DNA of 50,148 bases from a virus: IMG/VR virus record IMGVR_UViG_3300045954_000022, positions 1 through 50,148 of that record, one strand, 5' to 3'. The position numbers were made by a program, and so were the translations under genes. The notes under the pieces were generated by a model. That model was not told the origin of the DNA, ran no database searches, and saw only the letters and a list, made by a program, of their open reading frames with translations. This document shows, piece after piece, positions 749-49,826 of the stretch. The first letter of the stretch is position 1. The number at the start of each line of letters is the position of its first letter.

Positions 749-937
749 TCAGGAGAGACCGTGCTCTTCCAGTAGCTCGGGAGTGGCTTCACCGACCACG
801 CTGTAGTCAGCGTTGGACTCAAACTCCTCCTTGGCAAGCGCATACGCTGCCATCTGGGCGTTGTCCTCGGTATCCGCTTCGACTGTGTCGAAACTTTCTC
901 CCCACCCGACGTCCCACCGGACGATGTACCTGGGCAT
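749..937 (-). CDS. Small unknown acidic protein
   Basis: 62 residues starting MPRYIVRWDVGWGE, ending in acidic EATPELLEEHGLS. I chose the ATG at 937 because the longer frame (start at 1033) would run through the promoter-like sequences at 963-1033. The N-terminal beta-strand-like part and acidic C-terminus resemble many small phage accessory proteins, but I recognise no family. It is the first gene of the leftward operon leading to dNMP kinase. Confidence 0.6.
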   Translation of the reverse strand: MPRYIVRWDVGWGESFDTVEADTEDNAQMAAYALAKEEFESNADYSVVGEATPELLEEHGLS

Positions 938-962
938 GATGGTGCTGTGTGGTTGCCTCGCA

Positions 963-968
963 ATAGTA
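963..968 (-). promoter_or_regulatory. TACTAT box, possible -10 of leftward promoter
   Basis: On the minus strand GCTACTATTG lies 25 bases upstream of the start at 937. The same GCTACTAT core occurs upstream of the leftward genes starting at 11202 and 12391. No good -35 is visible at the standard distance. Confidence 0.35.
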
Positions 969-1004
969 GCAGCTAGGTTGATACTAGGAAGCCCCTGTAA
1001 CATC

Positions 1005-1033
1005 AGTTTACCTGATGGTACAAGGGCGTCCAA
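1005..1033 (-). promoter_or_regulatory. Candidate sigma70-type promoter for dNMP kinase operon
   Basis: On the minus strand TTGGAC (1028-1033) and TAAACT (1005-1010) are separated by 17 bases, upstream of the gene starting at 937. Spacing is ideal and the hexamers are moderate matches. The tail of this promoter overlaps a small inverted repeat (ATCAG...CTGAT). Confidence 0.4.
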
Positions 1034-1053
1034 ATTCGGGTGGTTCGTCAGCC

Positions 1054-1082
1054 AAAAGCCCCATGCTGGCCGGCATGAGGCT
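1054..1082 (-). terminator. Rho-independent terminator after the cyAbrB-like gene
   Basis: On the minus strand AGCCTCATGC pairs with GCATGGGGCT (10 bp, one G-T wobble) around a 6-7 base loop, followed by TTTT. It lies downstream of the leftward regulator gene ending at 1179 and upstream of the dNMP kinase operon promoter. The 96 bases between it and 1179 hold nothing I recognise. Confidence 0.7.
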
Positions 1083-1178
1083 TGAGGGGTGAACCGACTC
1101 AGCGAGGGAAGCAGCCGTTCGGCCTGTCGTGTGCACTGATTCGGGGGTGATGCCTGAACAGTAACACAACGTCACCTA

Positions 1179-1578: not shown

Positions 1579-3378
1579 TCACTTGGCATCCAACCACGTC
1601 AGACCACTGTGAGCATCAGCCGCAGGCGGCACAGCCCTGCCATCGCCCAGCTCCAGCCACTCGGCCTCGATCGTCTCCATCGTCTCCTGCAGGATGCTCA
1701 CCCAACGTTCCACCGCATCTTCACGCACGGACATGATGATCTCGTCGTGGACGGTGGCCAGCAGTACGGCCTCCTCCTCGGGTGTGCGGTGGAGCGTCAA
1801 CCACAGGGCGCCCAGGGTCTCCTTGAGCACGGCGGCACCGGCTCCCTGGATCACCGTGTTGAGACGGCGCGTCATCTGGTTGGCGTCGCCCTTCAGGAAG
1901 CGGCGCAGACGGGTGCGGCGGATCCTCACGAACGGCCACTGCCCGCACCCCTTCGCCGACAGCTCCTGCTCGAAGGCCGCGTCCTTGTGCCAGGCCGCGA
2001 TGCCGGAATAGAGCTCCAGGAAGGTGTTGCGGATGGTGTTCGCCTCCTCCAGGGTCATCTCGATGCCCATGGTGGCCGCGTAGTTCTTCAGGCCCCTGGC
2101 GCCGGCCCCGTACAGCAAGCCGAAGTTGGCCGACTTGGCCACCTGGCGCTGGGCCTTGGATGGCTCGTCGACCTTGTAGATGGCCCGCGCTGTGAGTGTG
2201 TGGAGGTCCTGGCCCTCGCAGAAGGCCTCGACCATCACGCGGTCCTTGGCCTCCACGGCGGCCAGGCGCAGCTCCATCTGGGAGTAGTCGGCCACCACCA
2301 GCCGGTAACCGGGACGCGCCACCACGCAGGCGCGGAAGCGGGGGTCGCGGGGGATCTGCTGCAGGTTGGGCTCGACGCAACTGAAGCGGCCGGTCTCGGC
2401 CCCCAGCTGCCGGTAGCTGGCCCTGGTGCGGGCCTCCTCGTCGCAGTGCCCGATCAGAGCGGTGGCCATCTGAGCCCCCTTCACGTGGCGCCGGTAGCTC
2501 AGGAAGGCATCGACCACAGGGTTTTCGCCGCGCAGAGGCTCCAGGGCCGGCTTTGAGGTGGAGGGGCGGCCGTCCGGGCCCTTCGGCTCGTAGCCCAGGG
2601 CCTCGGTGAAGACGCGCAGCATCTGCTTGGGCGACTTCAGGTTCAGCTCGACGCCCGGAGTCATGAACACCTGGGCTTGGGCCAGGAAGTCGGCCTTCAT
2701 CTGCTCGGCCTCTGCAGCCAGCGTCTCTCCCAGCTCGCGCAGGCGTGGAACGTCCCAGGTCAGCCCGTGGCGCTGCATCTGCGCGACGGCCTGGAGCGCG
2801 GCGCACTCATGGCTCCAGGCCCGCATGAGGTTGGCATGCTTGAGCATGTCCGTGAGCGGCGAGTAGAGCTGGCGCAGGGCCCGCACATCGTTCGCCGCAT
2901 AGAGCAGCTGCTCGGCGGTGATCTCCCCGGCCCAGTTCGATCGCTGCAGCTCCTTGTCGACGTCATCCCCGGTGATCCGGTGGAACAGCTCGGCCAGGGA
3001 GTGCCGGACGTTGGGCTTACCGTTCCACACCAGGACCGAGGCCAACATGGTGCAGTAGACGCGGCCGGGGAAGAAGTGAACGCCGTGCTCCTGCAACCAG
3101 GAGACGTCGAACACCGCGTTGTGGGCCACCCAGGAACGGGGCTGGTCGCAGAAGGCCCGGAGCCGCTTCCAGTCGGCCTTGTCGAAGTCCCAGCAGTCGA
3201 GCACCAGCGGGGCATCGACTCCCCTGGCGAAGAACTGCAGCAGGCGGAGGCCCCCTTGGGTGGGGGCCAGGCCGGTGGTCTCGCAGTCGAAGTAGACGAT
3301 CGTTGACCGCTCCAGGGCGGCCAGATCCTGAGTGCCGCCCAGCTGTGGTGCTGCCGGTCGCACTTGCGCGGGTATCAT
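1579..3378 (-). CDS. polA: DNA polymerase I family (family A) with 3'-5' exonuclease
   Basis: 599 residues, the usual phage length without a 5' nuclease domain. The N-terminal DEDD exonuclease shows DCE (D31, E33), HNAVFD (about 86-91) and AANDV (D164). Polymerase motif A is DYSQMELR (D364), motif B RQVAKSANFGLLYG (K415, F419) and motif C VHDE (544-546). Phe at position 419 in the O helix is the common residue that discriminates against dideoxynucleotides. It replicates the phage genome together with the primase/helicase at 5643. The start ATG overlaps the stop of the upstream gene (ATGA) and lies inside the palindrome at 3369-3383. Confidence 0.95.
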   Translation of the reverse strand: MIPAQVRPAAPQLGGTQDLAALERSTIVYFDCETTGLAPTQGGLRLLQFFARGVDAPLVLDCWDFDKADWKRLRAFCDQPRSWVAHNAVFDVSWLQEHGVHFFPGRVYCTMLASVLVWNGKPNVRHSLAELFHRITGDDVDKELQRSNWAGEITAEQLLYAANDVRALRQLYSPLTDMLKHANLMRAWSHECAALQAVAQMQRHGLTWDVPRLRELGETLAAEAEQMKADFLAQAQVFMTPGVELNLKSPKQMLRVFTEALGYEPKGPDGRPSTSKPALEPLRGENPVVDAFLSYRRHVKGAQMATALIGHCDEEARTRASYRQLGAETGRFSCVEPNLQQIPRDPRFRACVVARPGYRLVVADYSQMELRLAAVEAKDRVMVEAFCEGQDLHTLTARAIYKVDEPSKAQRQVAKSANFGLLYGAGARGLKNYAATMGIEMTLEEANTIRNTFLELYSGIAAWHKDAAFEQELSAKGCGQWPFVRIRRTRLRRFLKGDANQMTRRLNTVIQGAGAAVLKETLGALWLTLHRTPEEEAVLLATVHDEIIMSVREDAVERWVSILQETMETIEAEWLELGDGRAVPPAADAHSGLTWLDAK

Positions 3379-3629: not shown

Positions 3630-3751
3630 GGGATGGGTGGGGTGTAGAGATAGGCCATCGCGTCGGCGAGGCTGGGGAAGGTGTGTTCGGTGCCGGTGCC
3701 GATCTGGGCGTGGAACGTGCCACCGGCAGAGAAGACGCGGGCTACGCGCAT
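3560..3751 (-). CDS. Small unknown protein
   Basis: 63 residues, MRVARVFSAGGTFHAQIGTG then PSLADAMAYLYTP. The first 40 residues look like a compact alpha/beta domain of the kind often seen as tiny phage proteins; the C-terminal 20 are low complexity. It overlaps the end of the upstream gene by 10 bases and the start of the downstream gene by 70 bases in another frame, so translation of the C-terminal part is uncertain. Confidence 0.45.
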   Translation of the reverse strand: MRVARVFSAGGTFHAQIGTGTEHTFPSLADAMAYLYTPPIPCPIPQHQSATQSAPSVSLSTSA

Positions 3752-4077
3752 GACGTGGGGAAGGGCTGCTCGGTGAGCGTACGGCCGGTGAGCAGGGAGG
3801 CCCAGACCCGCTTCGGCCGGCCGTGACAAACCGCATCACGACTGGGTTGGTAGTGGGGGGTTTTCTCGATCCAGCGGTCCTTGGCGGCCTCCCGGAAGAT
3901 GGCCGCGATGCATCGGGGATCGGCGGAGGGACGGAGGCCGGGGTGGGACCGGCGCATCACGTCCCACAGGTCATCGGAGGTGATGCGGGCTCGGGTGCAG
4001 GCCAGACGGTGGAGTTCGCGACGGGCCACGTCAGCCCACATGGTGGTGTCGGGCCTTATGTAGTCGTACGGATTCAT
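3742..4077 (-). CDS. Winged-helix-type phage protein of unknown function
   Basis: 111 residues. The central part (ITSDDLWDVMRRSHPG, then PRCIAAIFREAAKDRWI) followed by a CHGRPKRVW segment matches a pattern common in phage genomes: a helix-turn-helix or winged-helix body with a His-Gly-aromatic tail. Members usually sit among replication genes, as here. DNA binding is likely but no specific role is known. ATG at 4077 is preceded by a C-rich leader with the dispersed motif at 4095-4103. Confidence 0.6.
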   Translation of the reverse strand: MNPYDYIRPDTTMWADVARRELHRLACTRARITSDDLWDVMRRSHPGLRPSADPRCIAAIFREAAKDRWIEKTPHYQPSRDAVCHGRPKRVWASLLTGRTLTEQPFPTSCA

Positions 4078-4113
4078 GGGGTATGGAGAACGGGGTGGGA
4101 TGTGGAGTCAGGC

Positions 4114-4581: not shown

Positions 4582-5199
4582 TTATGGTCTCCGAAAATCG
4601 ACTTCGTGTGCAGCGGTGGCGGCCTGCAGGATACGTTCGTGATCGAAACTATAGCCTTTATCGCCGTGATTTGAGGGGGTACAATCTGTATGCTGACAAG
4701 TTACTCTATCTCCCCTGCCGTCAAACTCGATACCAGCGGTTCTACCGCATCCACACATGCACCAATAATGCGGATCCCAAGCAGCTTCCAGTAATCCAGG
4801 GGAGCTGTAGCTCCTTTCAAGTATATACATACCTGGGTAGCCTGGATGGGATCTGTACCCAAATTCGTTGTTCGGGTCGGGTAACCCATAGGCTACGAAG
4901 AAGTATTCTACCCTACTCGCAAACTCATTGAGGCGTGTGTCTTCAAGCTTCGGTCTGCCGCCAAAACCGAAGTAGTACCCAGGCCCCCAAGGCTTCACCT
5001 CAATCCACGTTCCACCGTGCATCTTCGGTAGGTAGAAGTCAGGTAGATACCAGCCTGATGGCAGGTCAAACCCCTCAGGCTCGTATTCCCACACAATACC
5101 CAGCTCGTTGAAGAACAAGGCAAACCGTGCCTCCAGCCGACTGCGGAAGAGTCTGCCGGCATACCTAGTAGGTATTGGCTTAATTGAAGCTGCGGTCAT
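4582..5199 (-). CDS. PD-(D/E)XK-fold nuclease with C-terminal Cys cluster
   Basis: 205 residues from ATG at 5199. The N-terminus has the pattern RYAGRLFRSRLEARFALFF, then GIVWEYEPEGF, YLPDFYLP and WIEVKPWG. These give E23, D54, E67 and K69 of a restriction-like PD-(D/E)XK nuclease of the type common in phages and their hosts. The C-terminal third has CMCGCGRTAG and VTCQHTDC, a possible zinc ribbon. Role may be DNA repair, resolution or free-standing homing-type cleavage; none is proven. Codons are AT-richer than in surrounding replication genes, suggesting a separate acquisition. Confidence 0.7.
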   Translation of the reverse strand: MTAASIKPIPTRYAGRLFRSRLEARFALFFNELGIVWEYEPEGFDLPSGWYLPDFYLPKMHGGTWIEVKPWGPGYYFGFGGRPKLEDTRLNEFASRVEYFFVAYGLPDPNNEFGYRSHPGYPGMYILERSYSSPGLLEAAWDPHYWCMCGCGRTAGIEFDGRGDRVTCQHTDCTPSNHGDKGYSFDHERILQAATAAHEVDFRRP

Positions 5200-5340
5200 G
5201 GGTGCTGTAGGTGGACGCTGCACAAGCATACACGGTGTAGGGGAGTCTCACCCCATCCGTTGCCAACGGCGAAACCTATCGGCATCTAGTACCCGCCTCG
5301 GCTCCGACCAACCCTCCCCTCCTATGTGTGGGAAAAGCTG

Positions 5341-5385
5341 TCACGCCGACGCCTTTTCCAGTTTTTGCAAGGAGTCTCGGCGTGA
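5341..5385. repeat. Inverted repeat pair 1, TCACGCCGA / TCGGCGTGA
   Basis: Arms at 5341-5349 and 5377-5385 are perfect 9-base complements separated by 27 bases. The spacer contains CTTTTCCAGTTTTTGC. The same arms with the same spacing recur at 5538-5582. Confidence 0.75.
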
Positions 5386-5537
5386 TCGGCCTGTTTTCGG
5401 GCGGTGGGGTGTAACGCCGTCTTCAGGACGTTCCAGGTGCATTCTCATATCCGTCTCATGTGAGAATTTAGATTCTCTTAAGGATTCGATGCTTCGTCTA
5501 GAGATGCCGTGACACCCTCTTTCAAAAAAGACCCATG

Positions 5538-5582
5538 TCACGCCGAAACCCCGTATCAACACTGAGAAGTGGGTCGGCGTGA
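5538..5582. repeat. Inverted repeat pair 2, TCACGCCGA / TCGGCGTGA
   Basis: Arms at 5538-5546 and 5574-5582, again 27 bases apart. The left side is flanked by an A6 run and the right side by CACCTTTTT. Iteron-like binding sites for a replication protein or a long hairpin are both possible. Confidence 0.75.
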
Positions 5583-5642
5583 CACCTTTTTCGACACTAG
5601 GGGCGGAGGGTTGGCAGCCGCCCCAGGTGGTCGGGTGGGACG

Positions 5643-7829
5643 TCAACCTTCCCGTGGGTCGTCCTCCTTGGGCTCCAGCGGCAGTGGGGCCACGTCGGTG
5701 GTGGTGATGTGGCTGGAGAGCACCGCCAGGTAGGAGGAGGTCTTCTGTGTGCGACCGTGGGCGTCCTGCATCGAGCGGTCCGGTCCCCTGGCGATCAGGC
5801 CTCGCTTCAGCATGCGGGCCAGGTTTGGCCTGATGGAGCCATCCGCCGTGCGGGTCTGCTCGGCGATCTCCCAGGTGGTGAGGTCGTGCGGGTAGGCATC
5901 CCGCAGAACCGCCAGGATCTTCACCTGGATCGTCTCGATCCGGCTGGTGCGCGGTGTCTCAGCGGGGCGTTGCGGATCTGACAGGGTGAAGCTCAGGTCT
6001 GCGTTCATCGTCATCTGCAGGTGGGTGCCGCCTCTACCACTACGGCTCTTCTCAAAGTTGAGGATCCTGGCGTCAGGCCCCATAACCCGGATCTCCTCTT
6101 CGTCGGGCAGCCGGAGCTTGATCACCTCGTCCACCGCCGCCGTGATAGCTGAGGTACCACGATGGCCGCCGTTCTTATTGCTATGATGCACCACGAAGAT
6201 GCAGCAGGCCGGGAACAGGGTGCCGTTGGCCTTGGCGAGAAAGTAGAGCGGGTCAGCGAACTCCTTGGCGTTCTCACTATGAGGTGACCCCACACTGCAG
6301 GCCGATAGGGAGTCAATCACCACAAAGCGGGGCTTCACGTCACTGAGCAGCTCGATGGTGCCAGCCCTATCCCGCAGATTGAACCCGTTCCGCACTACGA
6401 AGTCATCCTCCTTAGTGAAGCCGTGTTGCACCAGCATCTCCTGCATGACCATATTATTCTGGTCGTTCTGGGCGATGAGCAGGGTGCCCCCGGCCACTGG
6501 CATCTTGCGCCCCCTGATAGAGATGTCGGTAGAGCGCATGATCGTCTTGCCGATTGCCAGGGCAGCCTGGGTCTTCCCTTCCCCTGGTGCGGCGTGGATC
6601 ATTACTACTGAAGGTGCGTAGAACATATCTGGAATGATGTAGTCCAGAAGGAACTCTTCAGCCAGAAAATCGGCCCCTGTCTGCCTAGGCGGCATCTGCT
6701 TATGCTGCATATGCGTGATATACAGGTTGTCGAAGAAACTCCTATCACAGCGGGGGAAACGTGAGCGCAACTGCTCCAACTCAAAATCCGCCATAGCGGG
6801 GTCTTCGATGTGATTGTATATCGTATCCAGCTGCTTGATAATATCCTCAAAGCTATCCTTCTGTATCTCCTCATCCTGCTGCATGCGTTCCCGCATCTCA
6901 GGTGTGAAACGCTCGCGATTCTTGTCGTATTCGTCTGCAAAGGCAATCAGGTTGCCCAGGTTCCGCTGCTTACCACCTGACTTCTTACCGAAGGTGGCCC
7001 ACTTCTCAGCGCATGGATCGTCGCCACGCTCCCACTGCGCCTGGTGTTCCGGGTGGGTCGTGCGCTTCGACCAGGCCCGCCAGTACTCCAGGCCCTCGTC
7101 TGTCGGGAAGGTGTGGTGGATGGCCATGCCCACATGGATCCAGTCCCGATAGCTCTGATCTGGCGGGATCACTCCCAGGCATCCCTCGATGATGTTGCGC
7201 TTGTAGGCCAGTGGCCGCCAGGCTCCCCCGTACTTGATCTGCTGGGAGAGGACGCCCCCTGTGGCGACGTGATCCTCCTTGGCCTTCCGCATCAAAGCCA
7301 GCATCCAGCCAGGGGCCGGTGGGATGTTGCTGAGGTCGCCGTGCAGCTCGTAGCTCTCGCCTCCCTCGCTGTGATCGTTGGCCGGGTAGTCCCCATAGAC
7401 CACGCCCTGGAAGCCCTTGCCCCACAGCACTTCAAAGCCCTTCCCGGAGGCTTCCGTGCTCACGCTGTGCAGGCTGTCCATGTTCTCGTCGGCGGAGACG
7501 AGGAACAGGTACTTGGCGGCGTTCTTCTTGGGGCTGGTGACGCAGGGGGCCTTGGCCAGGTCGTCCCCGAACTGCTCCAGGGTCATGGCCAGGTTGGCGT
7601 CCACGTCGAAGATCGCCAGCCGGCTGTGAGGGCCGCACCACAGGCCGATCGCCGTGTAGTCGGTGTGCCCCTGGCGGATGGCCAGATCGAGGTCGGCCAA
7701 TCCCTTATGGAATTTGCCGGGGTGGGGCTCGTAGCTGTGGTCAGGCTTCTTCCCACCGAGAATCGGTGTGAAGGCCAGGCCCTCAGGCAGGCTGCGGGCG
7801 AACGCGAGAAGATCAGACTGTGATACCAT
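5643..7829 (-). CDS. Primase-polymerase / RepA-like helicase
   Basis: 728 residues from the ATG at 7829 (MVSQSDLLAFARSLPEG); an ATG at 7877 would add 16 residues encoded through a hairpin. The N-terminal prim-pol domain has FDVD (D75, D77). A PriCT-2-like segment follows (DWIHVGMAIHHTFP, about 229-243). A RecA/AAA_25-type helicase core has Walker A AAPGEGKT (413-420), Walker B RFVVIDS (501-507) and VVHHSNK. The C-terminal about 100 residues look like a winged helix. It primes and unwinds DNA for the family A polymerase. Confidence 0.9.
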   Translation of the reverse strand: MVSQSDLLAFARSLPEGLAFTPILGGKKPDHSYEPHPGKFHKGLADLDLAIRQGHTDYTAIGLWCGPHSRLAIFDVDANLAMTLEQFGDDLAKAPCVTSPKKNAAKYLFLVSADENMDSLHSVSTEASGKGFEVLWGKGFQGVVYGDYPANDHSEGGESYELHGDLSNIPPAPGWMLALMRKAKEDHVATGGVLSQQIKYGGAWRPLAYKRNIIEGCLGVIPPDQSYRDWIHVGMAIHHTFPTDEGLEYWRAWSKRTTHPEHQAQWERGDDPCAEKWATFGKKSGGKQRNLGNLIAFADEYDKNRERFTPEMRERMQQDEEIQKDSFEDIIKQLDTIYNHIEDPAMADFELEQLRSRFPRCDRSFFDNLYITHMQHKQMPPRQTGADFLAEEFLLDYIIPDMFYAPSVVMIHAAPGEGKTQAALAIGKTIMRSTDISIRGRKMPVAGGTLLIAQNDQNNMVMQEMLVQHGFTKEDDFVVRNGFNLRDRAGTIELLSDVKPRFVVIDSLSACSVGSPHSENAKEFADPLYFLAKANGTLFPACCIFVVHHSNKNGGHRGTSAITAAVDEVIKLRLPDEEEIRVMGPDARILNFEKSRSGRGGTHLQMTMNADLSFTLSDPQRPAETPRTSRIETIQVKILAVLRDAYPHDLTTWEIAEQTRTADGSIRPNLARMLKRGLIARGPDRSMQDAHGRTQKTSSYLAVLSSHITTTDVAPLPLEPKEDDPREG

Positions 7830-7851
7830 CGTAAGGCGATAGAGGAATACC

Positions 7852-7873
7852 GCCCCCGTCACTGGGGGCTTTT
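7852..7873 (+). terminator. Hairpin with T-tail oriented against the primase leader
   Basis: GCCCCC (7852-7857), loop GTCACT, GGGGGC (7864-7869), then TTTT. It has rho-independent terminator form on the + strand, where no gene lies upstream. On the minus strand it falls in the leader (or first codons) of the primase gene. It may block antisense transcription or act as an mRNA hairpin. Confidence 0.5.
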
Positions 7874-7929
7874 CCATGCTCGCACGGGGTGGAATGTCCG
7901 GGTATCAGATGTCGTTATGCAACAGGCCG

Positions 7930-7983: not shown

Positions 7984-8571
7984 GTGCCACTCCTTACGAA
8001 CACCAAGGTTTCCGAGTACAGCAAGGCCAGCGGTGGCGGCTATCTCAACCCCAACAAGATCCCCACGGGGCGCTCCGTGCGGTTCGCCATCATGCCCGAC
8101 AGCATGATCGAGTATTTCGAGACCTGGGGCGAGAAGTCAGACGGCAAGCGGCAGCCCGTGCGGTTCGCCGAAGAGCCGACCCCTGACGACGTTGAAGCTG
8201 CTATGACCAAGGCGGGCCTCAAGCTGGCAGTCAACAAGATCAGCGATAAGCCCGACGTGCCCAAGTACGTTCTGGCCCTCACGATCTACGAGCACGAAAG
8301 CGGCGAGATCAAGGTGCTGGCACTCCCCCAGCCCAGCATCCGCAACCAGCTGGAGGAGCTCGACAGCAAGCCTGACTACGACCCGATCACCGACTGGGAT
8401 CTGGAACTGTCCAAGAAGGAGGAAGGCGGATTCGTCAAGTACTCCCTGATCGCTCTGCCCCGCCGCCGTGGCCAGCAGGCCTCGATCGATGTCGCCTGGG
8501 AGGAAGCACAGGATTCCGGCTTCGACCTGAGCCGCCTGCTCACCAACGGGGATCCGTTCAAGGCCGCGTAA
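7984..8571 (+). CDS. Putative single-stranded DNA-binding protein
   Basis: 195 residues from a GTG. The layout, a small domain with beta strands and short loops (GRSVRFAIMPDS; YVLALTIYEHESGEIKVLAL; FVKYSLIALPRRRG) and a conserved-looking WDLELSKKEEGGF segment, resembles the OB-fold SSB-like proteins of cyanophages. It is followed by an exonuclease and faces the primase, a typical place for an SSB. There is no acidic C-terminal tip (ends FKAA), which is unusual for SSBs. Assignment is by pattern and context. Confidence 0.45.
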   Translation: MPLLTNTKVSEYSKASGGGYLNPNKIPTGRSVRFAIMPDSMIEYFETWGEKSDGKRQPVRFAEEPTPDDVEAAMTKAGLKLAVNKISDKPDVPKYVLALTIYEHESGEIKVLALPQPSIRNQLEELDSKPDYDPITDWDLELSKKEEGGFVKYSLIALPRRRGQQASIDVAWEEAQDSGFDLSRLLTNGDPFKAA

Positions 8572-8618: not shown

Positions 8619-8670
8619 CGTGCCTCGCAGTAGCGGGCGTTGTTGAGAATCCGGCTGCTAGCCTGTGGCC

Positions 8671-9537
8671 ATGACAGCCACCGTCGCGCCACCTTCAGCC
8701 GAGATTCAGAGGCAGCTGGAACGTCTGACGTCCGCTCGCACCCTGACCCAGGATAACAGCGGCGAGTTTCGTGTATATCGGGATAAGTACGGCCGGGTAC
8801 TACACAGCGTAACAAATATACTCGGCGCAACAAAGGATATGAGCGGCCTGATCTCCTGGCGCATCCGCATGGGCGAAGAACGGGCCGGTCAGATCCTGGC
8901 TTTGGCATCGTCTCGCGGCACCAACAGTCACGATCGGGCCGAATACCTGCTGAAGACGGCCAGGAAGATCGCCTTCGCCGCAGCGAAGAAGCGTAACAGA
9001 CTCCGCTACCACTCCAGCGGCCTGCTGGAAGTACCTTCCGCCATAACCCGCTGGGCCCTGGGAGAGGTCTACGAGTCCATGCCGGCCGGCAAGATCTACA
9101 GCAACAGCTTCGCCGAACCACTCTGCCGGTGGATCGTCGCCAACGTCACGCAGATTTATAGCGTCGAATTCCGCGTCCGCTATATATTCGACGGCCCATC
9201 CAGGTTCGTCCGCAACATGCCATTCGACGGGTTCGCCGGCCAGGGAGACGGTCTACTCGGTATCAACGGCAGCGGCCCGATCCTCGCCGACTGGAAAACC
9301 AGTAACAGCCGGCCCGACGTGGATAAGAAGGCTGAGTGGGTCGACCAGCTGGGCGGCTACCGGCTTGGCATGCGCCGCGACGTGGACATCGAGCCCGAAG
9401 GCGGCTTGGTGGTCTGCGCTCGCCGGCTGGCTCCGGTGGAGGTGGTTGAGGTGGATCGTCCCCAGCTGCAGGTCGGCAGCCAGAACTTTCTGGACCGCTG
9501 CGATGCCTACGTGGTGGGGGACCGGGTGTGCAGCTGA
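8671..9537 (+). CDS. RecB/Cas4-like PD-(D/E)XK exonuclease
   Basis: 288 residues from ATG at 8671 (GTG at 8665 is an alternative). Features of the family are LHSVTNILGATKD near residue 45, a helix with SWRIRMGEERAGQ, RGTNSHDRAEYL (about 83-94), FAGQGDGLLG (about 188-197, Asp), ILADWKTS (about 204-211, Asp and Lys) and a QLGGYRLG helix. This is the PDDEXK_1 layout of phage exonucleases used in recombination or host DNA degradation. It partners logically with the SSB-like protein upstream. Confidence 0.75.
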   Translation: MTATVAPPSAEIQRQLERLTSARTLTQDNSGEFRVYRDKYGRVLHSVTNILGATKDMSGLISWRIRMGEERAGQILALASSRGTNSHDRAEYLLKTARKIAFAAAKKRNRLRYHSSGLLEVPSAITRWALGEVYESMPAGKIYSNSFAEPLCRWIVANVTQIYSVEFRVRYIFDGPSRFVRNMPFDGFAGQGDGLLGINGSGPILADWKTSNSRPDVDKKAEWVDQLGGYRLGMRRDVDIEPEGGLVVCARRLAPVEVVEVDRPQLQVGSQNFLDRCDAYVVGDRVCS

Positions 9538-9989
9538 GCGACGACCGCCGCAACGAGCTGTACCTGGCGGCCCTGCAGGGAGGCTCTCCCTCGGGCCTGC
9601 TGCTGCGGCACATGGACCTGCACCAACTCACCTTCGATGAAGCGGCCGAGGACTGGGAGGCCGTGATGCAGCGGCTCCGGGTGGACGCCTCCATGACGAG
9701 CGAGATGGAGCTTGCTCGTGTCAGGGCCTGCCGGTGGCAGATCGTGAGCGAGGCGAGCCGCCGGGGGCAGTACCTCGCCGCATCCGGGACGCTCAAGGAT
9801 CTGGGTTTCGCCGCCGGAGAGCAGCAGGCATCGCTTTTGTCCGTCGTGGCTGGGGCTCCCGTGCTCAGGATCGTCGTGGAGGGCTCCCAGGGCGGCCAGG
9901 AGGGCGGTGGAACGTCCCTGAGCGGTGCGCGGGCCATCAAGGGCACTCCAGAGCCGCCGGAGGGGCCTGAGCAGGCCGCTGCCGGTTGA
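9528..9989 (+). CDS. Unknown helical protein, possible terminase small subunit
   Basis: 153 residues from GTG at 9528, overlapping the exonuclease end by 10 bases. An N-terminal helical region (RRNELYLAALQGGSPSGLLL) and a second helix rich in Ala/Arg (ARVRACRWQIVSEASRRGQY, then LAASGTLKDLGFAAG) precede a low-complexity Gly/Pro/Glu tail. The helical body followed by a beta tip (PVLRIVVEG) resembles small terminase subunits, but no DNA-binding motif is certain. The dispersed motif lies in the tail at 9907-9915. Confidence 0.45.
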   Translation: MQLSDDRRNELYLAALQGGSPSGLLLRHMDLHQLTFDEAAEDWEAVMQRLRVDASMTSEMELARVRACRWQIVSEASRRGQYLAASGTLKDLGFAAGEQQASLLSVVAGAPVLRIVVEGSQGGQEGGGTSLSGARAIKGTPEPPEGPEQAAAG

Positions 9990-10096: not shown

Positions 10097-10110
10097 AGTG
10101 GGGTGGAACG

Positions 10111-10425
10111 TCAGGTGCCCTGCAGGTAGTCGACGTGGGCATCCAGGTCGCGGATCAGGTGCCGGAGATTGTCCAGGTGGTGGTTCCTGGCTCTGCGGGC
10201 CTCGGGGTAGGCGTCGGGCCCTTGCGGGTAGTAGTCGCGACCGTGGCAGGTAGCTGTGGCGAGAGCGTCGAAGGCAATCTCCACAGCAGCAAGGGCGGCC
10301 GTGTACTCCCTGAGCAGGGTCTCGCGACCGGTGCCATTCAGGTGGACTACGGGGAGGGGAGGCACGGCAGGCTCTTCGGTATAGGTGTTGTCGTCGGAGC
10401 AGTAGGAGAGGTGGAGGCGGGCCAT
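10111..10425 (-). CDS. Small unknown protein
   Basis: 104 residues. A low-complexity acidic/Pro-rich start is followed by a helical body (LLREYTAALAAVEIAFDALA, then HHLDNLRHLIRDLDAHVDYL) with a CHGRDYYPQGPDAYPEA loop between two long helices. No family recognised. Last gene of the leftward block; its stop codon overlaps a copy of the dispersed motif (10103-10111). Confidence 0.6.
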   Translation of the reverse strand: MARLHLSYCSDDNTYTEEPAVPPLPVVHLNGTGRETLLREYTAALAAVEIAFDALATATCHGRDYYPQGPDAYPEARRARNHHLDNLRHLIRDLDAHVDYLQGT

Positions 10426-11202: not shown

Positions 11203-11230
11203 GGGGTGGAGTGTCGAGTGGGTTGTTCGG

Positions 11231-12391: not shown

Positions 12392-12471
12392 CAGGGTGGA
12401 GTGTTGATGGGGTGGGGGGGGGTGAGCCACCTATAGGGCCGGGGAGGCCCAGTAGGGGGGTCAGTTGTCTG

Positions 12472-14138: not shown

Positions 14139-14170
14139 GGGAACGATGGGGGGTGGAGTGTAAAGGGGTG

Positions 14171-39211: not shown

Positions 39212-40903
39212 GTGGCCACGACCCGCGTCACCGATCTGCAGGCGCTGACCACGCCGGATGGAGCAGATGTCCTTCACGCGGTCGATGTCTCGGCGGATCG
39301 AGATTCCAAGCTCACCATCACTGGTCTGCAGGCCGCGATCGGTGGAGCGTTCGCCCCGGCTGTGCACCAGCACAACGCCAACGAGATCATCAACTTCAAC
39401 GCCAGCTCCAGGGCGCAGACCGAGGCGGCGCTGATTGCTGGGGCCAACATCACTCTGACGCCGGCAGGCACTGGCGCGACCCGGACCATCACTGTGGCCA
39501 GTACGGCGGCGGGCGGCGGGGGAGGCACGGTCACCCAGGTGGATGGCGGGGCGGGCCTGACGGGGTCGGTCACCACCAGCGGCAGCCTCGCGGTGGGCGC
39601 GGGCAGTGGTATCACCGTGGCGGCGGACTCCGTCTCGATCAACCGCACCACCACCGACACCTGGTATGCCAGCGCCGCGCAGGGTGCCTTGGCGGCCACC
39701 GCCCTGCAGCCTGGCCAGGCGGCCACAACGGCCCAGGGTGCCAAGGCCGACACCGCCTTGCAGCCCGGCAGCGTCGACCTGGGCTACACCGCCGCCACCA
39801 GGACGATCACCAACACGGCCGGCGACCCTGCTGTGCTGCCGCTGGTCACCTCGGGCGCTGCGGGCCTGGCGCCGCAGTCTGGCGGTGGAACGTCGAACTT
39901 CCTGCGGGCTGACGGCACCTGGGCGGCTCCCCCGGCCGGCGGTGGCGGGGCGACCAATCTCGACGGGTTGAGCGACGTCACGATCACGACGCCGGCCACC
40001 GATCAGGTACTGAAGTTCAACGGCACCGAGTGGGTGAACGCTGCGGCACCTGGCGGGGGCGGGGGCACCGTCACCCAGGTCACCGGTGGCGCCGGCCTCA
40101 CCGGATCGGTGACCACCACAGGGGCCCTGGCGGTGGGGGCCGGCACCGGCATCACAGTGAATCCGGATGACGTGGCGATCAATCGCACCACGGTCGATGG
40201 GTGGTATCTGCCGCGGGCGAACCACACCGGCACCCAGGGGGTCAGCACGATCCAATTCGCCAACTCGGCCCGCCTGCTCGGCTGCCCCGCTTCAGCCGGC
40301 CCTGGCCAGGAAGTGACCGTGGTGGCGCCACTGTTCTTCAACGCCGGCGCACTGAACGTGAACCCAGCGAGTGGGGCGTTTTCCGGCTCGATGAGCAGTG
40401 CAGACTTCACCAAGCTGGCCGGCATCGCCACCGGGGCCACGGCGAACAGCACCGACGCGCAGCTGCGGGATCGCTCCACCCACACCGGCACCCAGGCCGG
40501 CAGCACCGTAACCGGGGCCTACACGGCGTCGGGCCTGACGATGTCCGGGGTGGGGCTGCTGGGACGTGCCGCCGTTGGGGGCGGTCCTGCGGTGGAGATC
40601 ACGATCGGCACGGGCCTGCTGCTCACCGGCACAACCCTCACCGCCACGGCGACCGGTGGTGGGGGCGCCACGGATCTGGATGGGTTGTCGGATGTCTCGA
40701 TCCTGAGCCCTGCCTCGGGGCAGATCATCGGGTTCAATGCCGGCTTCTGGCGCAACATGACCCCAGGCAATCTGTTCCTGGCGCAGTCGAACCCCACAGG
40801 AGTGACAGGGGCTGATGCCATCACGAACATGATCTCACTCACGCAGGCGGAATACGACGCCATCGCGACCAAGAACGCTTCCACCCTATACGTGATCGTC
40901 TGA
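39212..40903 (+). CDS. Tail fibre protein
   Basis: 563 residues from GTG at 39212. N-terminus MATTRVTDLQALTTPDGADV followed by Gly-rich linkers and two long repeats (GGTVTQVDGGAGLTGSVTTS and GGTVTQVTGGAGLTGSVTTT, then ATNLDGLSDV-type words). The same NLDGL-[ST]DV words occur in the fibre at 34787. Highly repetitive, GC-rich and probably trimeric beta structure. Confidence 0.7.
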   Translation: MATTRVTDLQALTTPDGADVLHAVDVSADRDSKLTITGLQAAIGGAFAPAVHQHNANEIINFNASSRAQTEAALIAGANITLTPAGTGATRTITVASTAAGGGGGTVTQVDGGAGLTGSVTTSGSLAVGAGSGITVAADSVSINRTTTDTWYASAAQGALAATALQPGQAATTAQGAKADTALQPGSVDLGYTAATRTITNTAGDPAVLPLVTSGAAGLAPQSGGGTSNFLRADGTWAAPPAGGGGATNLDGLSDVTITTPATDQVLKFNGTEWVNAAAPGGGGGTVTQVTGGAGLTGSVTTTGALAVGAGTGITVNPDDVAINRTTVDGWYLPRANHTGTQGVSTIQFANSARLLGCPASAGPGQEVTVVAPLFFNAGALNVNPASGAFSGSMSSADFTKLAGIATGATANSTDAQLRDRSTHTGTQAGSTVTGAYTASGLTMSGVGLLGRAAVGGGPAVEITIGTGLLLTGTTLTATATGGGGATDLDGLSDVSILSPASGQIIGFNAGFWRNMTPGNLFLAQSNPTGVTGADAITNMISLTQAEYDAIATKNASTLYVIV

Positions 40904-41712: not shown

Positions 41713-42710
41713 ATTACCTGGCCCCAGAAGCTGACCCGGTTCACGCAACGGAAACCGAAATCTTCGGCAGCTTCCGCGAGAAGATGCGCGCCATCGACCC
41801 CGAGGCGGTGGACGATGAAACCGGCACCATCATCGGCCGGAATGCCCTCACCGGCGAACTGATGCCGAACGCCACGCGCGCCTCTGGGTACTACGGTGAT
41901 CCCTTGCCGGCGGTCCAGGGCTTCTTCCTGCCGGTGCCGGAGGATGAGGCCCTGCGGGTGGCTAACCCGGCCGCGCTTGGCGTGATCGAGACGGAGCACC
42001 TGAACCCCTGGCCGACGCTGCGGAGCAACACCGAAGGCGAGCCGGAAGTGGGTCCCCTGCCGGAGTGGGTGCAGCCCACCGGCGCCCATGACGCCTACCC
42101 GCTTGGCATGTGGGTGCAGCACAACGGCTACGACTTCGTCTCGCTGCTGGAAGCCAACGTGTGGGAGCCGACGCCGGAAAGCAACTTCTGGCGCATCAGC
42201 CCCGATCCCGGCCCGCTGCCCTGGCGGGCTCCCACCGGCGCGGCCGATGCCTACGCGATCGGTGACCGGGTCACCCATACCGTCGCAGGCCGCGAGACCG
42301 ATCTGTGGGAATCCAACATCGACGCCAACACCACCGAGCCCGGCACCGACGGCACCTTCGACCGCTGGTGGTCACCGATCCTCGATGCCGGCGGTGAGGT
42401 TTTGCCGTGGGTGCAGCCCATGCCTGGCACCGCGAACGCTCCCTACGAGATTGGCGCCAAGGTGAGCCATGAAGGGCAGGAGTGGGTGAACACCGTGCAG
42501 CTCAATGTCTGGGAACCCGGCGTATTCGGGTGGGACGTCGTATCGCCCCCAGCAGACCAGGCGGGCCAGGGGTTCGGCGCCACCGAGAAGCCTCTCACCA
42601 GGAAGCAGCAACTGGCCGCCAAGCGGAAGCGCAAGGGTGGCGCGTTCGTCGGTGACGACCCAGCTACGCCCGACACCAATGAGGCGTGGATCGACGGGAA
42701 GAAGCCTTGA
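41709..42710 (+). CDS. Carbohydrate-binding repeat protein (CBM5/12-like)
   Basis: 333 residues. Three tandem modules with shared words: WVQPTGAHDAYPLGMWVQHN, WRAPTGAADAYAIGDRVTHT and WVQPMPGTANAPYEIGAKVS. Each continues with a Trp/Asn/Trp-Glu-Pro end (NVWEPTP, NIDANTTEPG, NVWEPG). This is the pattern of chitin-binding type CBM5/12 repeats in tail proteins. The C-terminus is Lys-rich (RKQQLAAKRKRKGG). The stop overlaps a TTG that starts the protease gene. Confidence 0.6.
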   Translation: MNYLAPEADPVHATETEIFGSFREKMRAIDPEAVDDETGTIIGRNALTGELMPNATRASGYYGDPLPAVQGFFLPVPEDEALRVANPAALGVIETEHLNPWPTLRSNTEGEPEVGPLPEWVQPTGAHDAYPLGMWVQHNGYDFVSLLEANVWEPTPESNFWRISPDPGPLPWRAPTGAADAYAIGDRVTHTVAGRETDLWESNIDANTTEPGTDGTFDRWWSPILDAGGEVLPWVQPMPGTANAPYEIGAKVSHEGQEWVNTVQLNVWEPGVFGWDVVSPPADQAGQGFGATEKPLTRKQQLAAKRKRKGGAFVGDDPATPDTNEAWIDGKKP

Positions 42711-43285: not shown

Positions 43286-43359
43286 TCTGGTTCATCTGGC
43301 TGGTGCTGATCGTGCTGATCGTCCTTTGGTGGAACGTTTGCCAGGAGTGGCGGCGCTGA
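43282..43359 (+). CDS. 25-residue single-TM peptide
   Basis: ATG at 43282 overlaps the protease stop (ATGA). The product MIWFIWLVLIVLIVLWW then NVCQEWRR is almost entirely one membrane helix with a charged C-terminus. Too short for usual gene calls. A related peptide is encoded at 46120. Context near the endolysin suggests a lysis accessory. No ribosome binding site is needed given coupling. Confidence 0.5.
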   Translation: MIWFIWLVLIVLIVLWWNVCQEWRR

Positions 43360-44995: not shown

Positions 44996-45511
44996 CTATC
45001 GGCCCTGCCGCAGCCCGACCAGGGGTGGTTTGTCCTCGGGCGGCCGGTTGCGCGGGTCGCGGGGATCGAGCGGGGCGCCGGCACGTGGATCCGTGGCGGG
45101 CATCACGGGCGGCGGGGGCATCGGGCGGAGCGGTGGAACGTCCCACGCCTCAGGCTCGGGCAGCGGGGCCTGGGGCCGCTGGGGCGGGTGGCGCCGCTGG
45201 TATTCGCCCACTGCGATGGTGCCACCACCCAGCAGGGCCAGCAGCACGGCGAGGCTTTCGGCGGCGGATTCCTTGATCTTGTCGAGGATGCCTGGGCACA
45301 CCTGGGGCATGTCCGTGGAACTGGTGATCTTCTGCAGCTTGGCCAGGTAGCCGTAGCTGCACATGAAACCGGCCAGGATCAGCAGGCCGAACTGCACCCC
45401 CAGGATCCAGGCCACCAGGAGCAGCAGGAATTTCTCCCTGTTGAAGGGCCGGGGCGGTGGTTTGTCCCACTCCGGCTCCGGGGCGACCGGCTGGCCGCGA
45501 TGGTCAGACAT
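44996..45511 (-). CDS. Membrane protein, possible holin
   Basis: 171 residues. Two hydrophobic helices (about 28-50, FLLLLVAWILGVQFGLLILA; about 85-102, ESLAVLLALLGGGTIAVG). A Pro-rich, charged C-terminal half follows (about 110-171). Membrane topology and position by the endolysin are consistent with a holin, though the long Pro-rich tail is not typical. Starts where the small gene at 45504 ends. Confidence 0.5.
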   Translation of the reverse strand: MSDHRGQPVAPEPEWDKPPPRPFNREKFLLLLVAWILGVQFGLLILAGFMCSYGYLAKLQKITSSTDMPQVCPGILDKIKESAAESLAVLLALLGGGTIAVGEYQRRHPPQRPQAPLPEPEAWDVPPLRPMPPPPVMPATDPRAGAPLDPRDPRNRPPEDKPPLVGLRQGR

Positions 45512-46864: not shown

Positions 46865-47706
46865 GGACGAATGTCTACGGCCCATCCGTCGGAGGACGAA
46901 TACACAAGCCAGCGCCTATCCCAGTTCTGACGGGTGTACCTCACACTCTTGCCATTGGTGTCGGCTGTGTACCCACCATTAACCATGTCAGCTACCCCAA
47001 ACGGGTCGTTCTGAATCCAGTGAGTGTCGGTAAACCCAATCGTAATCGTCCAGTGCCCGCCGCCTGATGGCGAAGATACATGCGAGTGGTGCAGCCAACC
47101 AACTGGCGTGGGACGTCCTTCCTTGATCTGGTTCTCCAGCCACTGCACCGTACCGTTCTGGATGAAGTCGGCCTGTAGGCCCAGGTGCCGCAGCGTTGCT
47201 ACCTGTGCGCTGGCATCAGTGGTATCACCAAACTGCGCCCGCACTTTGTTGTACGCATCATCATTTTCGATCGCGCCCCAGTACATAGCTGCCATCGCGC
47301 AACTGGAGCTGAAGCACTCGCGGTGCCCTTGGCCACTACTGTTATCGAGCTGACTCTGAAATGGTACGGGCAGCGGGTTGATGTATGCAGGTGGCGGAGG
47401 CGGCGGTGGAGTGCTGCTGAACTCAGTGGCCCAGTTGCTGTCTTCACTGAGGATGGCGCGACCACCCTGCAGCGCCATGATTTCGTCGTATAAGATCCAG
47501 ACGCCTCGTGCTTGCTGCGGCTGATTGTTGTAATACCGGAACCGATCAGCAAACCGTTCTGCGGTCATCAGCGGCCCGTAGCCGCGTTCCGACGCCTCCG
47601 GTGGTGCCGCCCGTGGATCGAGGGCCTGCTGCAGGCGGGGGGTGGGACGTTCCACCGGCAGGTCGGCTTCAGGCCGGCGGGGGTCGATCGGGGCGCCTTC
47701 AGGCAT
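46861..47706 (-). CDS. C39-like cysteine peptidase with Pro-rich linker
   Basis: 281 residues. Catalytic region: VPFQSQLDNSSGQGHREC then FSSSCAMAAMYWG (C131 or C136), GGGHWTITIGF (H218) and QNDPFG (D234), as in peptidase C39-like proteins. N-terminally there is a Pro-rich stretch and a segment RFADRFRYYNNQPQQARG then VWILYDEI, similar to the endolysin N-terminus. Likely attacks host envelope peptides. Last gene of the long leftward chain. Confidence 0.7.
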   Translation of the reverse strand: MPEGAPIDPRRPEADLPVERPTPRLQQALDPRAAPPEASERGYGPLMTAERFADRFRYYNNQPQQARGVWILYDEIMALQGGRAILSEDSNWATEFSSTPPPPPPPAYINPLPVPFQSQLDNSSGQGHRECFSSSCAMAAMYWGAIENDDAYNKVRAQFGDTTDASAQVATLRHLGLQADFIQNGTVQWLENQIKEGRPTPVGWLHHSHVSSPSGGGHWTITIGFTDTHWIQNDPFGVADMVNGGYTADTNGKSVRYTRQNWDRRWLVYSSSDGWAVDIRP

Positions 47707-48064
47707 CGTCAGGGGGCGGTTGGGAGGAGTCTACGGAGCCCCAGCGGGCGAGCACAGTTCGAGCGAAGACCAGAAGCTCCCCGGCCACTGCATACAAATA
47801 ATTCGTATCATCCTTGGGGATGCAGTAGTAACCCAAGGACTTTGCTGCGATCTCCAGCAGCTCTTCGTCTGTCGGCCCCTGCGGCTCTGCCTTCACGCAA
47901 CACTCACGGATAGCGTTGCGATCTTCCACCGTCAGCGTGGAGCAGTCAGGGCAGCAAGCAGCCCGACCCTTCGCCACAGCCTTGATTCCCTCGCTCCTGG
48001 AGGCGCCACAACCGGTGCAGCGGGAGGTGGTGGGCGGCTGGGGGTGGATAGCGGCTTCACTCAT
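47699..48064 (-). CDS. Small zinc-finger-like protein
   Basis: 121 residues. N-terminal CTGCGASR and CCPDC give a C2C2 zinc-finger pattern; a helical body (EELLEIAAKSLGYYCIPKDD, VAGELLVFARTVLARWG) follows. Overlaps the peptidase start by 8 bases. No function assigned. Confidence 0.6.
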   Translation of the reverse strand: MSEAAIHPQPPTTSRCTGCGASRSEGIKAVAKGRAACCPDCSTLTVEDRNAIRECCVKAEPQGPTDEELLEIAAKSLGYYCIPKDDTNYLYAVAGELLVFARTVLARWGSVDSSQPPPDDA

Positions 48065-48339
48065 CGGCCTGCCTCCGCACGATCAGCAGGCAACGACACG
48101 TAGCCAGCCTCACGTAGTACTTGCGTCCTGGTAACTTGCGGATGATCTCTGTTCCACTCTCTATCCGTGAGTAGATCGACCATCTCGTAAAGGTGTGGTC
48201 CATTACCGCCCTCCCAGGTGATCACAAGCCGCGTTCTCTCGGGAAGAGCTTTCACCTCCTGGCATGACAGCGCAGGAGGGGATGAGCCCTTATCTGCCGC
48301 TGAGCCGGTGTAGCCGTGGCGTTTAGAGGTGAACATCAT
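48061..48339 (-). CDS. Small unknown protein
   Basis: 92 residues, ATG at 48339, coupled by ATGA at both ends. Mixed alpha/beta sequence (ERTRLVITWEGGNGPHLYEM; THE rest VDLLTDREWNRDHPQVTRTQ). Internal ATG alternatives exist. No family recognised. Confidence 0.55.
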   Translation of the reverse strand: MMFTSKRHGYTGSAADKGSSPPALSCQEVKALPERTRLVITWEGGNGPHLYEMVDLLTDREWNRDHPQVTRTQVLREAGYVSLPADRAEAGR

Positions 48340-48611
48340 CCCCCCTCATCAGCACGATCGGCTTCGGCAAGAAGCATTCCTGCCAGACGCCAAACTACAG
48401 GCATTTCCTCTGGCTCAAACTCAGGAGCGGCTGTTGCACGTTCTTCAAGCCACCTTGCAATGGCGCGGATCTCGGCAGCATAGCCGTGGCTCAACTGCCA
48501 TTCCTTGCCTGCAGGTGGTACGGACCTGTCGTAGACATCGTCCATCACCTGCCACAGCGGTGGGGTGTGAGGTGGGGCGTAGAAGCCTTGGGATGGGTTA
48601 CACATTGTCAT
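48336..48611 (-). CDS. Small unknown protein
   Basis: 91 residues from ATG at 48611 (MTMCNPSQGFYAPPHTPPLW). Helical C-terminal half (LSHGYAAEIRAIARWLEERA; EEMPVVWRLAGMLLAEADRA). Starts near the stop of the upstream gene; the longer frame upstream is a shadow. No family recognised. Confidence 0.55.
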   Translation of the reverse strand: MTMCNPSQGFYAPPHTPPLWQVMDDVYDRSVPPAGKEWQLSHGYAAEIRAIARWLEERATAAPEFEPEEMPVVWRLAGMLLAEADRADEGG

Positions 48612-48822
48612 CCTCCTCCAGCCTGGTTTCCAACCAATCCGCTGCCCACTCCAGACAGCCCATGTCGTCCACACTACGCGGCTGCTTGCGTAGTTCTGCG
48701 CAGATGCAGGCAACAACAGATCGCATACGCGCTGGATCGGGTATTGATCTCTGGGCGTTTTCCATAGACCAAAACGCATCGGTCATGTAGTCGATCAGTT
48801 TGTCGTGTTTGGGGGTGCTCAT
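48598..48822 (-). CDS. Small unknown protein
   Basis: 74 residues, ATG at 48822 coupled to the upstream stop (ATGA). Helical (KLIDYMTDAFWSMENAQRSI; RMRSVVACICAELRKQPRSV) with an acidic end LETRLEEDDNV. No family recognised. Confidence 0.55.
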   Translation of the reverse strand: MSTPKHDKLIDYMTDAFWSMENAQRSIPDPARMRSVVACICAELRKQPRSVDDMGCLEWAADWLETRLEEDDNV

Positions 48823-49073
48823 TGCAGTGCCTCCTCGTTCCTGTCGTCGGTGACAACCACGCCACCCGGTGGGCGGTAGGTAACAGTCACGCGGTTGCTG
48901 TGATCGTCAACTCGAAACTTTCCCCTGCTGTCGCAAGCGAAGACAGTGACAAGGTTTGCGTCTGTGTCTACCACTGTCACGTTGTTTACAAAGTTACCGT
49001 GGCCATCCCTTACGGTATAATGCATGGCGTCTTTATCGGTAGCACGGATAATGCTGCGGATGGGTCTGTTCAT
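48819..49073 (-). CDS. Small unknown beta-rich protein
   Basis: 84 residues from ATG at 49073 (ATGA overlap; ATG at 49079 is an alternative). Beta-rich (AMHYTVRDGHGNFVNNVTVV; DANLVTVFACDSRGKFRVDD). No family recognised. It starts just below a dispersed motif copy at 49096. Confidence 0.55.
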   Translation of the reverse strand: MNRPIRSIIRATDKDAMHYTVRDGHGNFVNNVTVVDTDANLVTVFACDSRGKFRVDDHSNRVTVTYRPPGGVVVTDDRNEEALQ

Positions 49074-49303
49074 GTCCATCTCCGATCTGATTGCGGTGGA
49101 GCGTAGCGGTGTGCGCGTTCAGGCATTGCATCAAGTGCTGCCTGGTAGTGCGCTGCCCGTGCAGTGGCGTCCATTGCTGCTTCGGGCTGGTTGCGGGCGG
49201 TGAAGTAACTGGCGCGTAGTGATTCCCACGCAACAGCCTGTGCGTACAGCTCGGATACCTTGAAATCACCGTTGGCGATCTTGAGTAGTGTAGGGGATTT
49301 CAT
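49070..49303 (-). CDS. Small unknown helical protein
   Basis: 77 residues, ATG at 49303 overlapping the upstream stop. Helical throughout (NGDFKVSELYAQAVAWESLR; AAMDATARAAHYQAALDAMP). No family recognised. Confidence 0.55.
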   Translation of the reverse strand: MKSPTLLKIANGDFKVSELYAQAVAWESLRASYFTARNQPEAAMDATARAAHYQAALDAMPERAHRYAPPQSDRRWT

Positions 49304-49491
49304 CTGCCGATTCCTGCAATCATCTGCACGGTGATAAAGCCCACCAGCGCGAACAACCCACCCAAGGCTATATCGCCCAAGCGCTGGGTGCGGATGTAGT
49401 GCTTGCGAGCAGATTCACGGGCTTGGATGTAACGAGCAAGCATGGCTTTGTCAGAAGAAGTGGTGGTGTTGGGATTGAAGCGAACAGTCAT
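49300..49491 (-). CDS. Small single-TM protein
   Basis: 63 residues: a charged N-terminal helix (SDKAMLARYIQARESARKHY) and a C-terminal membrane helix (IALGGLFALVGFITVQMIAG). Coupled by ATGA to its neighbours. Probably sits in the inner membrane with the N-terminus in the cytoplasm. Confidence 0.6.
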   Translation of the reverse strand: MTVRFNPNTTTSSDKAMLARYIQARESARKHYIRTQRLGDIALGGLFALVGFITVQMIAGIGR

Positions 49492-49826
49492 GACAATGCA
49501 GAACGATAGGGGACACAGTAACGAGCAGCACGGGAGCCGATCTCTTTGAATTCTGGAAAGCCTAGAGAGCAGGCATCGTGCAGGTAATGCACACAGTCAC
49601 GGCAGCTAGGGCCGATGCGCTTTACGCCTCGCCCTGGGCGTGGGACGTCAGGTAGTACGTGCGTCCACGTTTCGCCTTGGCGTATCTTCTGGACGGTTGA
49701 TGGGCTCACGTCTAGTTCATCAGCAACCTGGCGATTGGTGAGTGCTGAGGTGAGTACGAATAGCACCTGTTCTTCGGTGAGCTTGCAGGATGCGTAGGGG
49801 GACAGGTTGGCGATGCCAGAGTTCAT
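49488..49826 (-). CDS. HTH protein with C-terminal Cys cluster
   Basis: 112 residues. LTEEQVLFVLTSALTNRQVA then DELDVSPSTVQKIRQGETW is a compact helix-turn-helix. The C-terminal half has CRDCVHYLHDACSLGFPEFK and ARYC, a probable zinc-binding cluster. Likely a small DNA-binding regulator; the HTH-plus-Cys arrangement is common in phages. Belongs to the leftward chain. Confidence 0.6.
   Translation of the reverse strand: MNSGIANLSPYASCKLTEEQVLFVLTSALTNRQVADELDVSPSTVQKIRQGETWTHVLPDVPRPGRGVKRIGPSCRDCVHYLHDACSLGFPEFKEIGSRAARYCVPYRSALS

Follow-up and report, generated by a model that had tools for sequence, protein, structure and literature searches.

The 50,148-base viral record IMGVR_UViG_3300045954_000022 of IMG/VR (the window, meaning the whole stretch of DNA that was analysed) carries an asymmetric nine-base motif, GTGGRRYGT, in far greater numbers than expected by chance and with an excess on the + strand. 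The core of the motif, TGGNRCG(T), recurs throughout a family of uncultured phages that have the same terminase large subunit (TerL), PrimPol-helicase, single-strand DNA binding protein (SSB) and exonuclease. The results support a recognition sequence maintained at the DNA level. Our analysis further suggests, at a probability of roughly 45%, that the phage PrimPol-helicase recognises the motif in its template and uses it for lagging-strand priming.

The motif in the window

GTGGRRYGT was found 66 times in the window, with 48 copies on the + strand and 18 on the −. An earlier reading from the sequence only had counted about 57 copies (45 on +) between 909 and 49648; the enrichment and the span, from the first base of the first copy to the last base of the last, were confirmed, and the counts are corrected here. 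The control pattern, reversed and not complemented, matched three times on + and twice on −. Base swaps at the fixed positions left only a few matches, showing that every fixed position matters, with partial tolerance for C in first place and for T at position six. Motif discovery, which the sequence-only reading had proposed, was performed with a position weight matrix built up from the sites; it converged on the extended consensus [CG]TGG-N-[AGT]-[CT]-GT, with 92 sites on + and 40 on − (~130 sites against ~10 expected under a third-order Markov null). Within coding DNA, 36 copies of GTGGRRYGT were seen against 6.6 expected and a maximum of 14 in 300 synonymous-codon shuffles, and they occupied all three frames and both orientations. 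The majority of the sites were intragenic. As synonymous shuffling abolished the excess, the signal lies at the DNA level. The view that the motif is real and far above chance was thus upheld against the Markov null, the codon shuffles and the reversed control; the count was not at or below that of Markov or codon-aware shuffles, the outcome that the same reading had named as counting against it.

Only two overlapping inverted pairs of the nonamer were present, at 45133 and 47642, and the consensus contained no downstream half site, so that the sites do not have the form of a dimeric palindromic operator with inverted half sites. No match was identified in an Rfam search. The GTGGRRYGT sites were as follows (coordinates, strand, position relative to a start codon or partner site where relevant).

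909..917, −
1705..1713, −
1789..1797, +
2745..2753, +
3637..3645, +, upstream of start 3629(−)
3710..3718, +
3959..3967, −
4095..4103, +, upstream of start 4077(−)
5007..5015, −
5404..5412, +
5635..5643, +
7319..7327, +
7889..7897, +, upstream of the PrimPol start
9907..9915, +
10103..10111, +
11206..11214, +, upstream of start 11202(−)
11678..11686, +
12133..12141, +
12396..12404, +, upstream of start 12391(−)
12721..12729, +
13381..13389, +, upstream of start 13377(−)
14153..14161, +, upstream of start 14138(−)
14432..14440, +
14772..14780, +
14947..14955, +
15616..15624, −
15863..15871, +
16654..16662, +, upstream of start 16643(−)
16764..16772, −
17167..17175, +
17838..17846, +
18682..18690, −, upstream of start 18694(+)
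19238..19246, +
20582..20590, −
20766..20774, +
20836..20844, −
22050..22058, −
22631..22639, +
22850..22858, −
24479..24487, +
27595..27603, +
28083..28091, +
28272..28280, +
28887..28895, −
30854..30862, +
32526..32534, −
32811..32819, +
34651..34659, −
35672..35680, +
36639..36647, −
38048..38056, −
39018..39026, +
39342..39350, +
39885..39893, +
40371..40379, +
42530..42538, +
43329..43337, +
45133..45141, +, overlapping inverted pair with 45138..45146
45138..45146, −, overlapping inverted pair with 45133..45141
47108..47116, +
47642..47650, +, overlapping inverted pair with 47647..47655
47647..47655, −, overlapping inverted pair with 47642..47650
48560..48568, +
48572..48580, +
49096..49104, +
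49640..49648, +

The ratio of + to − sites of [CG]TGGNDYGT was 8:9 in 0–5.4 kb, 32:4 in 5.4–15.6 kb and 67:38 in 15.6–50.1 kb. Both strands were enriched throughout the window, save for the − strand in 5.4–15.6 kb, which was near background. For GTGGAACGT alone the strand count was 11/11. The most polar run (5634–12132, 18:0) was matched by five of 60 label shuffles and is thus, taken on its own, not beyond such shuffling. The strong strand bias noted earlier therefore holds overall, but not as a uniform property, since it is concentrated in 5.4–15.6 kb. Its independence from gene direction was likewise confirmed for coding DNA, but not for a subset of copies close to start codons.

This subset comprised sites 1–25 nt upstream of the start of 14 of the 58 window genes, compared with 4.4 expected (1 of 2000 shifts). 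Most of these copies shared a single gene-relative orientation and so followed gene direction; in the gene sense most read ACRYTCCACC(C), then ATG or GTG, over the range 3629–18694. The + gene at 18694 also has a copy in the gene-relative orientation. Some − genes of the related phages begin 3–5 nt past a site. The start-proximal copies look like a regulatory or early-gene leader element and may mean that the word is used for a second purpose.

The motif family in related phages

A lack of conservation in relatives, which the sequence-only reading had named as counting against the motif, was seen for the exact nonamer, which was not enriched in the TerL relatives, but not for its core, which recurred with lineage-specific first and last bases. 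The first base gives GTGG in the window, CTGG in most relatives and TTGG in AT-rich phages. Per-genome searches for gapped words in excess returned CTGG.ACG or CTGG..CGT in most relatives, and TTGG..CGT at 35% G+C. Over the TerL relatives, TGGNRCGT was present 510 times in the TerL sense and 184 times on the other strand, compared with 216 on both strands for the reversed control.

In the stretches that separate the exonuclease gene from TerL in 89 relatives (330 kb in total), the TerL-sense strand carried 1158 sites against 298 expected (maximum 340), while the other strand was at background, with 210 sites against 220 expected. By crude open reading frame calls, the density was 3.3 per kb in + frames and 4.1 per kb in − frames, with all reading frames used. 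The similar density in the two directions, together with the excess over synonymous shuffles in the window, shows that neither protein coding nor the direction of transcription is the cause. The proposal that a constant polarity reflects a process reading one strand is strengthened by these 89 regions. Polarity was evident individually in 91 of 92 contigs.

When anchored on the exonuclease gene, the density jumped at the gene start, peaked at the gene and just downstream, and fell to background over 4–5 kb towards TerL. Some copies within the exonuclease gene of the relatives coincide with conserved residues, which may explain part of the peak inside the gene; the stretch behind it is not so explained. 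To the left of the PrimPol/SSB/exonuclease module, polarity was found in 51 of 65 contigs and both strands were enriched. The opposite strand was 1.3–2.4-fold enriched left of the module and not enriched right of it, as would be expected around an origin.

A divergent relative (G540) carried the variant GTGGNNCGG between exonuclease and TerL (11 copies against 1.0 expected, 11:1 by strand). In contig L197 the motif takes the form GTGGNNCGG, between exonuclease and a divergent TerL. L195, L197 and L198 had been taken as contigs without motif and exonuclease; this was overturned for L197 and L198, whose whole contigs have the exonuclease. The motif was missing from G426, L064 and L072, TerL relatives whose contigs are without PrimPol and exonuclease. 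Cyanophage S-2L had 20 copies of TGGNRCGT compared with 7 of the control, and no polarity with TerL. CTGGAGC / GCTCCAG was extremely dense in relatives such as L222, L229 and L260 (up to 42 in 21 kb) and is probably another lineage form of the same word. About 30 relatives, and L046 (4248–4556), encode between exonuclease and TerL a small protein that has a helix-turn-helix and what appears to be a membrane segment.

The window genome and its genes

The window belongs to a tailed phage: it encodes TerL, the portal, scaffold and major head proteins, tail proteins, a lysozyme and DNA polymerase A. Its closest annotated relative was cyanophage S-2L (TerL 40%, head protein 32%), and the nearest annotated relatives of a tail protein were Synechococcus phages. 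On the basis of these relatives the host is taken to be cyanobacterial, and the window is probably a cyanobacterial phage. The left part encodes the PrimPol-helicase (−), the SSB-like protein (+), the exonuclease (+) and a TerS-like protein, and most of its small genes lie on −; the + strand of this left arm is G-rich. The matched families of the window, in which many genes are without assignment, included neither an integrase nor a repressor. The features relevant to the motif were as follows.

1579..3378, −, DNA polymerase A with 3'-5' exonuclease domain (family match)
5230..5642, strand not applicable, noncoding stretch with repeats TGTCACGCCGA / TCGGCGTGACA, direct and inverted; onset of the polar segment
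5400..15600, +, segment of near-absolute motif polarity (32 sites on +, 4 on −)
5643..7877, −, PrimPol-helicase, AEP PrimPol with PriCT_2 helix-bundle and AAA_25 (RepA-like); the proposed reader (Pfam; fold match to pRN1 primase)
7984..8571, +, SSB-like protein (homologue L041:4399-4980 matches phrog_1192 SSB)
8665..9537, +, PD-(D/E)XK / lambda-exo-like exonuclease (phrog_298; PF12705 in 16/18 homologues)
9528..9989, +, small protein usually adjoining TerL, putatively TerS-like (family in 84/90 relatives)
14904..16361, +, TerL (phrog_2); in relatives the motif strand is its sense strand

The noncoding repeats at 5230–5642 are a candidate origin. Three near-identical intergenic hairpins, GGCGATTCTCAGTAAG..TTGAGAATCGC, were located at 10900, 11274 and 14171. 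Two further copies of the hairpin 16-mer were present in a viral contig of 35% G+C (G001), which was rejected as a relative because its proteins are unrelated. A 27-nt direct repeat, ATCCCTTATACTATAAGCGATRCTGAT, occurred twice at 14577–14660, in the most AT-rich part and just upstream of TerL. The final ~64 bases of the window (50085–50148) imperfectly resembled bases ~5–68, with an exact 20-base match, and perhaps represent a terminal or tandem repeat where the assembly was broken. The HIP1 octamer GCGATCGC was absent from the window though CGATCG was present 48 times, as if the octamer were avoided.

The PrimPol-helicase and other candidate readers

With one strand enriched, the other at background and genes running both ways, we infer a reader that acts on single-stranded DNA; a double-strand binder need not produce this pattern. 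Among the co-conserved proteins, the PrimPol-helicase is the best candidate because its known relatives read such words. PF08707 (the PriCT_2 domain) and AAA_25 were identified in 13/13 members of the PrimPol family, and PF09250 in five. An AlphaFold model of residues 1–340 had a mean pLDDT of 82 and a pTM of 0.60, and a fold search with this model returned pRN1 primase first (E 1e-5, TM-scores near 0.4, spanning the 331-residue chain) and NrS-1 PrimPol next. The TM-scores of these matches were modest (0.3–0.4), which is usual where a flexible linker joins two domains. No primase was found by a sequence profile comparison with NrS-1 or by a PDB sequence search. The PriCT-2 domain has been described as a helix bundle in contact with template single-stranded DNA (PMC8065100), pRN1 primase requires GTG in the template (PMC8076596), and the PrimPol of phage NrS-1 reads GTGG and TTTGGTTA (PMC8718748). 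The NrS-1 words resemble the GTGG variant of the window and the TTGG variant of the AT-rich phages.

The motif would be a polar, phage-encoded signal that is read from one DNA strand as the phage replicates. The PriCT_2 helix bundle may recognise the XTGG half of single-stranded X-TGG-N-R-C-G-(T), with X and the tail varying by phage lineage, and the PrimPol-helicase (5643–7877, −) would lay primers at the motif on the lagging-strand template. The fork would originate in the PrimPol/SSB/exonuclease module and run to TerL and on through it and the late genes, which would make the + strand the lagging-strand template of the fork heading to TerL. The asymmetric TG(G)-core words and, as proposed, the reading on the template strand by a helix bundle are shared with the sites of the AEP/PrimPol enzymes pRN1 ORF904 and NrS-1, whose PrimPols have the same domain order as the window protein and are its best structural matches. 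However, the pRN1 and NrS-1 words are short or rare in their own genomes, whereas the word here is longer, is enriched in the phage's own genome at several copies per kb and has lineage variants.

A number of observations weigh against priming by this enzyme. The partial rank correlation of motif variation was slightly higher with the exonuclease (0.53) and the SSB (0.51) than with PrimPol (0.43), and that between the helix-bundle region and the word variants was 0.35, all of these being confounded by descent. Every exonuclease-positive contig long enough to tell also has PrimPol, so co-occurrence cannot separate the two; in G540 the dense cluster stays with exonuclease–TerL, and PrimPol is ~10 kb off. 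The NrS-1 genome has one TTTGGTTA and no dense motif, so PrimPol phages are not in general carriers of such sites, and the NrS phages were negative as a yardstick for dense PrimPol motifs. In the window, the start-proximal copies are aligned with the direction of their genes, a pattern that priming would not be expected to give. Known primase sites are 3–8 nt long, and a site of ~8 nt at ~4–6 per kb is unusual for a primase.

An array of stoperators or operators, at which a phage regulator would bind asymmetric double-stranded sites to silence or block transcription, was also considered and appears unlikely. The many asymmetric copies with a GGTGG-like core and lineage-specific variants recall the cluster A mycobacteriophages L5 and Bxb1, whose dozens of stoperators also vary in motif between relatives, and the sites just upstream of starts in 14/58 genes, mostly in one gene-relative orientation, suit this explanation, as does the subset of − genes in relatives starting 3–5 nt after a site. 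However, stoperator orientation is relative to transcription (PMC6550527), and the L5 and Bxb1 sites are accompanied by an immunity repressor. The sites described here are mostly intragenic and have a physical polarity, alike in density in + and − open reading frames and at background on one strand, that in the relatives is independent of transcription. No integrase or repressor was detected among the matched families of the window, and no repressor-like family was universal in the exonuclease–TerL stretch. The stoperator parallel drawn by the sequence-only reading is therefore disfavoured, as polarity ignores transcription and neither protein was found among those families.

A recombination or nuclease signal of the Chi kind, in which the polar word would modulate an enzyme that enters at an end close to TerL, either the exonuclease of the phage or a RecBCD/AddAB-type enzyme of the host, is quite improbable. 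Like Chi and KOPS, the motif is short, over-represented and polar relative to replication; its onset is sharp at the exonuclease gene, its variants track exonuclease divergence best, and it would be oriented towards an enzyme that comes in on the side of TerL. Chi and KOPS are, however, features of host genomes, where a host Chi would need to be enriched. GTGGRACGT and GTGGRACGTC showed no enrichment in 14 and 386 cyanobacterial genomes (~400 in all), and neither did CTGGAACGT in 151 Cyanobiaceae genomes. A host motif (Chi, uptake or HIP1-like) was accordingly rejected for the sampled cyanobacteria, and the earlier suggestion of a Chi-type host signal was not supported, the host being the one presumed from the nearest annotated phages. 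The word also varies among phage lineages, and its density declines towards TerL rather than climbing.

Reading of the motif by TerS or TerL to find or orient the concatemer during packaging is highly unlikely. The co-orientation with TerL over the relatives (510 to 184) and the TerS-like protein kept in 84/90 of them are in its favour, but the 24 kb of G426 encode TerL as well as the TerS-like protein and are without the motif; moreover, site density is greatest at a distance of several kb from TerL and lowest at TerL itself, and the sites are scattered over many genes. No positive evidence was obtained for the packaging signal or modification site that had been suggested. An origin of the motif as a side effect of base composition, codon usage or repeated amino acids could draw on the G-rich + strand of the left arm and on the copies at conserved exonuclease residues, but the observed counts were reproduced neither by synonymous shuffles or Markov nulls nor by the reversed-pattern controls, at 35–64% G+C and in all frames; this explanation was refuted and retains next to no probability.

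If priming by the PrimPol-helicase is the function of the motif, a broader and more doubtful proposal can tentatively be made, in which the phage family would write a priming code, a lineage-specific word of 8–9 nt placed several times per kb on the lagging-strand template whichever way the genes run, co-evolving with its own primase and revealing origin and fork direction from the sequence. Should the motif mark primase start sites, the replication origin and direction could be seen in the genomes of uncultured phages, and primase specificity would be open to comparison of word and enzyme over many natural variants. Even with another reader, so strictly one-stranded a signal in 91/92 relatives indicates that a polar process has gone unrecognised in this widespread family of phages.

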